From positions 1 to 64,000 of the forward strand of contig CAKZXA010000034.1 in assembly GCA_937922045.1 (NCBI GenBank): a stretch of 64,000 nucleotides of DNA, in the 5' to 3' direction. Positions 4,588 to 6,204 of this stretch are shown piece after piece. Position numbers and translations under genes: made by a program. The DNA comes from an uncultured Acidimicrobiales bacterium (GTDB lineage: Bacteria; Actinomycetota; Acidimicrobiia; Acidimicrobiales; SZUA-35). Numbering within the stretch: position 1 is the stretch's first letter; every line of letters begins with the position of its first letter. The notes below the pieces were generated by a model. The model made no database searches and had not been told where the DNA came from. It saw only the letters and a program-made list of their open reading frames with translations.

Positions 4588-5019
4588 TTAGGCATCCGTC
4601 GTGTCGAGCGCTCCTAGAAGCCGATCGACGAACTCGGTCGCATCACCTTTGAGGTCTTTGCGATGGATGGCGTAGCCGCCGATCACCTCGCCGCCTCGGC
4701 GAGAGACGATGGTGCTCAGCTTGTCGAGGGTCTTGCCCATGTTGATGGCATAGGTGCAGTAGACGGCGGCCTTCTTGCCATCGATTCTCGGCATTTTCTG
4801 CAACCGCCCAGCCCGTCCTGGCCGTTGACCGGCGAAGACGAGGCCGTCGGTCCAGCTGCCAACGATGACGAGCTCAGCCTCGGAGAGGGCTTGCATGTCG
4901 ATCTCGGTGATCGGGCAGGCAACAGCCGCTATACCAGCCGAGCTCAGCTCCTGGGCGATCAGTTGACCGGCGAGCTTGGTGTTGCCGGTGAGACTTTCGT
5001 AGACGACGACAGCTTTCAT
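4588..5019 (-). CDS. Flavodoxin-like FMN protein
   Basis: This 143-residue single-domain protein has the flavodoxin phosphate loop at its N-terminus (ESLTGNTK, about residues 8-15) after a beta strand MKAVVVY, and a second strand ELVIVGSWTDGL where the isoalloxazine ring would sit. It should bind FMN and carry electrons or act as a small quinone or disulfide reductase. It is divergent, across 90 bases, from the SelW-like selenoprotein gene, so the pair may form a small redox locus with a shared promoter region. That link is inferred from position only. Confidence 0.85.
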   Translation of the reverse strand: MKAVVVYESLTGNTKLAGQLIAQELSSAGIAAVACPITEIDMQALSEAELVIVGSWTDGLVFAGQRPGRAGRLQKMPRIDGKKAAVYCTYAINMGKTLDKLSTIVSRRGGEVIGGYAIHRKDLKGDATEFVDRLLGALDTTDA

Positions 5020-5109
5020 GTCACCAGACTAACCGATGCCTCGGTCTTCGAAGCGACTTGGGGCCGCCCTCGGACCCCATCCCAACACGAACCCGCTAGT
5101 CTCGGAGCT

Positions 5110-5379
5110 ATGAACTACATCGTGGATATCACCTACTGCGTTCCTTGAGACTATTCCGAGTACGCCGTGAGCGTAACGAAGGATCTGCTCCAGAACTACC
5201 AGAACGTGATCGAAGATCTTCGTCTTCATACCGGCGATAAGGGCGTCTTTGATGTGGCCGTGAATGGTCACGTCTTGTACAGCAAGGCTGAAACCGGTCG
5301 CCATGTTGAGGACGGCGAAGTGTTGCGCCTCTTCACCGAACATGTCGGGGCTGACGTGCCGCGCTTTCCTCGCGGCTAG
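5110..5379 (+). CDS. SelW/Rdx-family selenoprotein with Cys-Val-Pro-Sec motif (in-frame TGA = Sec13)
   Basis: Read from ATG 5110 the frame runs MNYIVDITYCVP, meets TGA at 5146-5148, and continues open to TAG at 5377-5379. With TGA read as selenocysteine it gives 89 residues with the SelW/SelT/Rdx fold pattern: a first beta strand, then CxxU at Cys10-Sec13 where most homologues have CxxC or CxxU, then helix DLLQNYQNVIE, then GVFDVAVNGHVLYSK, then a C-terminal helix. The continued homology after TGA and the exact position of TGA in the redox motif argue against a pseudogene. A SECIS-like hairpin follows. The Shine-Dalgarno sequence (GGAG at 5104-5107) is unusually close to ATG. Such proteins are thioredoxin-like thiol oxidoreductases. 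The genome must encode SelA, SelB, SelD and tRNA-Sec for this to work. Confidence 0.85.
5146..5175 (+). promoter_or_regulatory. Candidate bacterial SECIS element with its UGA codon
   Basis: Directly after the in-frame TGA there is a perfect 5-bp stem, TACGC (5161-5165) with GCGTA (5171-5175), closing the 5-base loop CGTGA. The loop begins 17 bases after the TGA and has G as its second base. This fits the general bacterial SECIS rules as I know them: a loop about 16-37 nt after UGA and a G in the first two loop positions. TCC (5155-5157) and GGA (5181-5183) could add an outer helix. SelB would bind here to recode UGA. The structure was found by eye, not by folding. Confidence 0.65.
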
Positions 5380-5388
5380 GAGCCTAGT

Positions 5389-6204
5389 TTGCGGATCGAG
5401 GTCGACGAGCCGGACGATCCCCAGATAGCAGTTTTCCAAGGTCTACGTGATCACGTCTTGCGTCGACAGCGCGAGCAGCCTAACGGTGACATGGCTGGGG
5501 TCTTCGTAGCGGAAGGAGATCTCGTCGTCGAGCGTGCCTTGGCTGCTGGCTACGAGTTGCTTTCGGTGCTGATCGATGGGAAGCGCACAAAGGCTTTGCC
5601 GGATGCGATCCATCCAGATGTACCCATCTACGCCTGCACCCCCGGCGTACTCCAGCGCATAACCGGCTACCACCTCCACCGAGGCATGTTGGCCTGCTTC
5701 AAGCGCAGCGAGTTGCTCGGCTTGGACGAGGCGTTGGGATCGAGTCGTTCGATCCTTGTGCTGGAGGCGATCAACAACCCAACGAATCTCGGCGTCATTC
5801 TTCGATGCGCGGCGGCGCTTGGCATCGAGGCCTTCGTCCTCGATCGCACCTGCTGCGATCCCCTCTACCGACGATGCTGCCGCGTGTCGATGGGTGAGGC
5901 TTTTGCACTCCCCTATACCCGGCTCGGCAACTTTCCGGAGAGTTTGGATGCGCTCCGCGATGCCGGTTTCAGACTCCTTGCCCTCACTCCGGGAGAAGGC
6001 GCCTACCCAATTGATGAGCTGAAGGTAGCCGCTGATGAACGCGTCGCTCTTGTGCTCGGTTCAGAGGGGCCCGGACTAACCCCAGCAACGATGGAAGCCT
6101 GTGATGATCTGGTGCGGATACCGATGTCGGGCACGGTGGACTCGATCAATGTTGGATCGGCGGCGGCGGTCGCCTTCTACGCGCTGGGAAGCGCTCGCCG
6201 CTAG
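5389..6204 (+). CDS. SpoU/TrmH-family RNA 2'-O-methyltransferase
   Basis: This 271-residue protein is a SPOUT-fold rRNA or tRNA ribose methyltransferase using S-adenosylmethionine. The three family motifs are visible: NPTNLGVILRCAAALG (motif 1), VLGSEGPGL (motif 2) and IPMSGTVDSINVGSAAAVAFY (motif 3, the SAM-binding knot). About 120 residues precede the catalytic domain and probably form the substrate-binding domain. The start is TTG at 5389. AGGAG at 5378-5382 overlaps the stop codon of the selenoprotein gene, so translation of the two is probably coupled. The target nucleotide is not evident. Confidence 0.9.
   Translation: MRIEVDEPDDPQIAVFQGLRDHVLRRQREQPNGDMAGVFVAEGDLVVERALAAGYELLSVLIDGKRTKALPDAIHPDVPIYACTPGVLQRITGYHLHRGMLACFKRSELLGLDEALGSSRSILVLEAINNPTNLGVILRCAAALGIEAFVLDRTCCDPLYRRCCRVSMGEAFALPYTRLGNFPESLDALRDAGFRLLALTPGEGAYPIDELKVAADERVALVLGSEGPGLTPATMEACDDLVRIPMSGTVDSINVGSAAAVAFYALGSARR

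Follow-up and report, generated by a model that had tools for sequence, protein, structure and literature searches.

A SelW-like gene with an internal TGA codon, almost certainly read as selenocysteine, in an uncultured Acidimicrobiales bacterium

Main finding

In the window, by which we mean the whole stretch of 64,000 nucleotides that was analysed, a short gene of the Rdx family carries a TGA codon within its reading frame. We are highly confident that this locus is a gene for a SelW-like selenoprotein with UGA codon 13 decoded as selenocysteine (Sec), and the internal TGA is almost certainly read in this way. The conclusion is drawn from the place of the TGA within the redox motif, the Sec machinery of the host, the retention of TGA in every related locus that was read, purifying selection downstream of it, and a covarying hairpin that follows it. 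Ordinary rules for finding open reading frames (ORFs) would miss or truncate such a gene, yet it is kept across many genomes (153 of 395 in a class-wide search) of a little-studied actinobacterial class, the Acidimicrobiia.

Gene structure, family, and predicted fold

The features of the locus are listed in Table 1. ATG 5110, TGC 5137, the TGA at 5146-5148, and TAG 5377-5379 share one frame, and the TGA at codon 13, the single in-frame TGA of the ORF, stands at the U of the CxxU motif of Rdx/SelW proteins. The original prediction, made from the letters alone, had proposed a frame from ATG 5110 with CVP-TGA at the Rdx motif and a stop at 5379, and both the coordinates and the profile matches agree with it. 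The read-through product matches the Pfam family Rdx (PF10262) over residues 5-74 with an E-value of 2.3e-16, far above chance, so that the family-like sequence said to continue beyond the TGA is indeed present. Comparison with SelW/Rdx proteins had been recommended as a check, and the curated cut-offs of two profiles are exceeded, with 60.2 bits against 22.6 for Pfam Rdx and 48.9 bits against 34.2 for TIGR02174 (CXXU_selWTH). Membership of the NCBIfam equivalog NF041051 (SelTWH_Campy) was ruled out, at 64.2 bits against a cut-off of 88.

Table 1. Coordinates of the SelW-like gene, its elements, and its neighbours within the window.
Feature	Start	End	Strand	Details and evidence
SelW/Rdx-family selenoprotein gene	5110	5379	+	89 residues with TGA as Sec, stop TAG; translation, Pfam Rdx, TIGR02174, AlphaFold, Foldseek
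Redox motif C-V-P-U (TGC GTT CCT TGA)	5137	5148	+	C10, U13; sequence and translation
TGA, almost certainly selenocysteine, codon 13	5146	5148	+	TGA in 73 of 73 related loci at codon level
GGAG, probable ribosome-binding site	5104	5107	+	Two bases upstream of ATG; sequence
Bacterial SECIS-like hairpin	5160	5176	+	Stem 5161-5165/5171-5175, loop CGUGA 5166-5170; covariation, synonymous-codon test, single-sequence fold
SpoU-family rRNA methyltransferase	5389	6204	+	TTG start; Pfam 8.1e-36, tblastn of loci
Flavodoxin-like protein, divergent to SelW	4588	5019	-	Pfam Flavodoxin_3 3.5e-7; tblastn of loci

As had been anticipated for standard ORF calling, the SelW gene is absent from the mechanical ORF list of the window, for which the minimum length was 80 amino acids. 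The sequence TAGGAG lies over the SelW stop, ahead of the TTG start at 5389, and so places the AGGAG of the next gene where it had been reported, overlapping the true stop.

A model predicted by AlphaFold from a 40-sequence alignment (A2) has a mean pLDDT of 96.1 and consists, in its first part, of a strand at residues 3-9, then the CxxU motif, and then a helix at residues 16-30. When this predicted model was searched with Foldseek, ranks 1-21 were all chains of SelW-related structures (3dex, with a TM-score of 0.80, and 2fa8, 2p0g, 2oka, 2ojl, and 2obk), and mouse SelW (2npb) was found at rank 23 with a TM-score of 0.70. A sequence search of solved structures also placed 3dex first (E 3.4e-5). 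The protein is thus predicted to adopt the thioredoxin-like SelW fold of the Rdx / SelT-SelW-SelH family. Both positions of the redox motif are invariant in alignment A2, where U is shown as C; two of its rows (L048 and L054) have TGA at the first motif position too.

The locus could also be read as two short proteins, one a 12-residue peptide ending at the TGA and the other a separate protein from GTG 5167, where the presence of a GTG offers a possible start to an ORF caller. We consider this extremely improbable. The product from GTG 5167 would have neither the redox motif nor the first strand of the model, which precedes the helix at 16-30, the GTG falls within the loop of the hairpin downstream of the TGA, and the frames before and after the TGA make up one conserved domain. 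The same observations uphold the earlier dismissal of GTG 5167 as a false start, and we retain the reading of a single SelW gene that runs through the TGA.

Conservation of the TGA and selection on the gene

In the class-wide search, at least one in-frame TGA was present in every row among the matches listed. Within the host family, 30 of 39 genomes gave a SelW match, and every one of these matches contains a single in-frame TGA. A codon-level reading of 73 SelW loci, two of them from one genome and three from named contigs, found TGA as the Sec codon in all 73. A phylum-wide draw of 396 genomes gave matches in 49 of them (50 rows); counted per match, with the codon position unspecified, 39 rows had TGA alone, nine had no stop, one had TAG, and one had TGA together with TAA. 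In a phylogenetic tree, the window gene groups with loci L051 and L052.

Sequence downstream of the TGA was compared in 15 pairs of loci, two of which gave no dS value owing to saturation, and dN was well below dS. For example, dN and dS were 0.25 and 1.81 between the window gene and L051, 0.039 and 0.379 between L051 and L052, and 0.017 and 0.104 between L055 and L056. Selection downstream of the TGA is purifying.

These results bear on the possibility of a pseudogene or a sequencing error, by which the second Cys codon (TGC or TGT) of a CxxC SelW would have turned into TGA. Either codon is one base from TGA, and stop-free relatives, presumably Cys forms, do occur in the phylum (nine of the 50 rows above). 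There is nevertheless very little chance that this explains the locus, given TGA at the same codon in all loci read, purifying selection after it, and a conserved hairpin. Relatives with a stop or frameshift and with conservation lost past the TGA had been named as an outcome that would count against Sec; among the 73 loci the TGA is kept and the sequence after it is conserved, and the reading as a selenoprotein gene stands.

SelW and selA also tend to occur together across the class, in counts that take each genome singly, related ones included. Strong matches to selA were found in 141 of 153 genomes with SelW, compared with 118 of 242 genomes without it; these counts add up to 259 when the table is read by E-value, and the tally over the profile cut-off is 256. 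Of the 12 SelW genomes without a strong selA, 11 are at most 90% complete, and the twelfth (G004), more than 90% complete, has a weak selA match (E 2.2e-4).

Some matches contain a second in-frame TGA, in rows of family f34 and in genomes G254, G255, and G294. A second Sec was rejected for these, where the codon is an ordinary stop inside the match; this reading covers L074-L085 (f34), L057, L086, and L087, with other two-TGA rows of f34 (such as G132, G116, and G151) lying outside it. As separate observations, genome G297 has two different SelW genes (L024 and L063), both CxxU with TGA, and the f34 loci L074-L085, from genomes of about 1 Mb, retain SelW, its TGA, and a hairpin of six pairs even though their codons are AT-rich.

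A hairpin downstream of the TGA

In the window hairpin the stem begins 12 bases past the TGA, and 17 bases separate that codon from the loop. The five-base-pair stem with a G-containing loop at this distance had been described in the original prediction, and was found again at the same place. The G occupies the second position of the loop, 18 bases separating it from the TGA, and the outermost positions, 5160 and 5176, are paired in many relatives and unpaired in the window. Bacterial SECIS elements are subject to numeric rules of spacing. The loop G rule is printed in passages of an earlier paper (PMC1088965).

Folded alone, the window hairpin is not significant against shuffled sequences (z -1.36), and 12% of the synonymous recodings of this stretch match it in folding. 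Alignments were used because the single-sequence fold of the window was not decisive. Alignment A1 is gapless, with 73 sequences from the TGA onward (70 distinct rows), and its stem columns 15-20 pair with columns 26-31. In this stem 88.8% of cells are paired and five of the six pairs vary on both sides; 45 cells have a double change, compared with 15.1 in shuffles. None of 500 shuffles was as high on paired cells, double-change cells, or covariation score, and pairing falls to 17-59% when the partner is slid by 1-3 columns. On two other measures A1 was unremarkable: 55 of the 500 shuffles had at least as many pairs showing a double change, and 498 at least as many further pair types. RNAalifold, run without a given structure, paired columns 16-20 with columns 26-30.

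As the hairpin region is coding sequence, comparison was also made with synonymous recodings. A contiguous stem of at least five pairs is present in 54 of the 73 real sequences and in 3.9% of the recodings, and for 44 of the 73 at most 5% of a sequence's own recodings fold as well. The other 19 relatives have fewer than five contiguous pairs at this register, four of them (L064, L065, L071, and L072) only two. Serine in the loop or 3' arm is encoded by AGY in all 51 sequences that have it there, whereas AGY accounts for 68 of the 310 serines at other positions downstream of the TGA. An Rfam search of window positions 5000-5500 found no SECIS family, its lone match being a chance sRNA (E 2.7).

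Taken across the family, the sequences show the hairpin close behind the UGA, its small apical loop containing a G, that is expected of a bacterial SECIS element. The earlier claim of a SECIS fit, with its proposed folding check, is thus upheld by covariation and the synonymous-codon test in the family, and is not carried by the window hairpin folded alone.

Selenocysteine machinery of the host

Recoding of this kind implies Sec machinery, as the original prediction pointed out, and the host assembly (4.88 Mb in 128 contigs) was searched for it. The genes selA, selB, and selD and a tRNA-Sec are all present. On contig C103, selB scores 253.5 against a cut-off of 242.25, with a frame that reaches the C-terminal part of SelB, and is adjoined by selA (400.3 against 267.9). 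The tRNA-Sec is at the end of contig C89, with 67.1 bits against 47, and is called as tRNA-SeC with anticodon tca by ARAGORN. Absence of selB or selC from the genome, which would have spoken against Sec, was looked for directly, and selB and tRNA-Sec are both in the assembly.

On contig C14, selD (L019) scores 359.9 bits against 125 and has one in-frame TGA, in HGAGUAAK. A formate dehydrogenase gene (FdhA, L117) on contig C36 scores 665.6 bits, just below the cut-off of 666.25, and it too has one in-frame TGA, in NRTUHAPS. We take these motifs to be the usual Sec sites of SelD and FdhA. Because both carry in-frame TGA codons in Sec-type motifs, the host probably makes at least three selenoproteins, predicted to be SelW, SelD, and FdhA.

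An in-frame TGA does not by itself reveal the inserted residue, and the codon might be read as another amino acid, through a general change of the code or near-cognate suppression, with no involvement of Sec. Several observations make this highly improbable. Many relatives use TGA as the stop of their SelW gene, and TGA ends six of the 29 mechanical ORFs of at least 300 codons in the window, these ORFs being program-made and unconfirmed as genes. Furthermore, the host has tRNA-Sec, selA, selB, and selD, and the covarying hairpin is needed by a SelB mechanism and not by general reassignment.

We infer that codon 13 is decoded by the Sec pathway and that the product takes part in redox chemistry. 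SelB carrying Sec-tRNA(Sec) would bind the loop of the hairpin after the UGA, Sec would be put in at codon 13, and translation would continue to TAG 5377. The product would be a small protein of the thioredoxin fold, its first strand followed by a Cys-x-x-Sec pair that may cycle reversibly between thiol/selenol and selenenylsulfide as part of a redox protein.

Neighbouring genes

A homologue of the flavodoxin-like gene flanks SelW in all six of the related loci L022, L047, L060, L061, L051, and L052, the first four coming from further members of the host family, and a SpoU homologue flanks it in five of the six, being missing in L060. Among the other loci of L022-L113, no flavodoxin or SpoU match was found at E 1e-5 within flanks of about 1.5 kb, shorter at contig ends. 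The conserved proximity in six loci offers only a lead towards the flavodoxin-like neighbour as a reductant of SelW.

A putative second selenocysteine in genus g36

Genus g36, which belongs to the same order as the host (family f15), has SelW in 20 of 22 genomes (loci L048, L054-L056, and L094-L109). In 16 of these 20 the first motif codon is also TGA, giving U-V-P-U, and in the remaining four it is TGT or TGC. The 16 UxxU sequences form one clade with support of 98/83, nested among CxxU relatives in a tree of 90 columns with many weak forks. Its sister pair, L058 and L059, has TGT at this codon, one base from TGA. Selection within the clade is purifying (dN 0.098 and dS 0.476 for L048 and L054; 0.068 and 0.355 for L054 and L055), and selA is present in all four UxxU genomes of the selA draw (G322, G252, G320, and G383). 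An assembly error is unlikely, because genomes G322 and G410 are single contigs.

The hairpin of the UxxU genes has only three pairs in a row before a bulge, a form that is shared by the CxxU sisters L058 and L059. In the four sequences tested, it showed no folding advantage over synonymous recodings (z -0.3 to -0.5). The first G of the loop is 27 bases from the first UGA and 18 from the second. Judged from these sequences, SelW of g36 has quite likely gained a second Sec (U-V-P-U, with one hairpin downstream). It would then be a diselenide form of SelW in bacteria, evolved independently of the UxxU proteins of amphioxus and Ostreococcus that it parallels, and would go back to a single change in a CxxU ancestor with TGT at the first motif codon. 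In this clade a single hairpin may serve two Sec insertions that are nine bases apart, for which the CxxU sister genes provide natural controls.

Comparison with known SelW selenoproteins

The window gene belongs to a known kind, the bacterial SelW selenoproteins, and the newer part of this work is the UxxU clade outside the window. SelW-like selenoproteins are described for bacteria in passages of several papers (PMC1088965, PMC1794560, PMC2398784, PMC9402790), two of which place them among the commonest selenoproteins in marine metagenomes (PMC9402790, PMC2398784). Tables from 2006 include one in Symbiobacterium, then placed in the Actinobacteria (PMC1794560). In the open-licence PubMed Central literature, no paper joining Acidimicrobi- with selenoproteins was found.

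In contrast to this clade, the table of a 2026 review gives prokaryotic SELENOW-like proteins as CxxU with one Sec (PMC13188914); the relevant passage of a 2022 review also has SELENOW-like as CxxU (PMC9312934). No bacterial UxxU SelW was found in the accessible passages of open-licence PubMed Central literature on UxxU or two-Sec SelW. A UxxU form of SELENOW is described in amphioxus and Ostreococcus lucimarinus in passages of PMC7539508, PMC3473315, and PMC2375036, with two Sec in the motif, as suggested here for the 16 g36 relatives. Those proteins are eukaryotic, whereas the window gene itself is CxxU.

The predicted fold of the window protein is like that of SAV_2001 of Streptomyces avermitilis (3dex) and of 2fa8, 2p0g, 2oka, 2ojl, and 2obk (TM-scores of 0.73-0.84, by query), at 18-32% sequence identity to these bacterial SelW-related structures. 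Mouse SelW matches in fold, yet is only 20% identical in sequence, and in contrast to the hairpin here eukaryotic SECIS elements sit elsewhere in the mRNA. The window gene is also close to the prokaryotic SELENOW-like proteins (PF10262), which, in the passages that describe them, combine an Rdx domain, a CxxU motif, an in-frame UGA, and a SECIS element just downstream, as it does (PMC1794560, PMC2398784).
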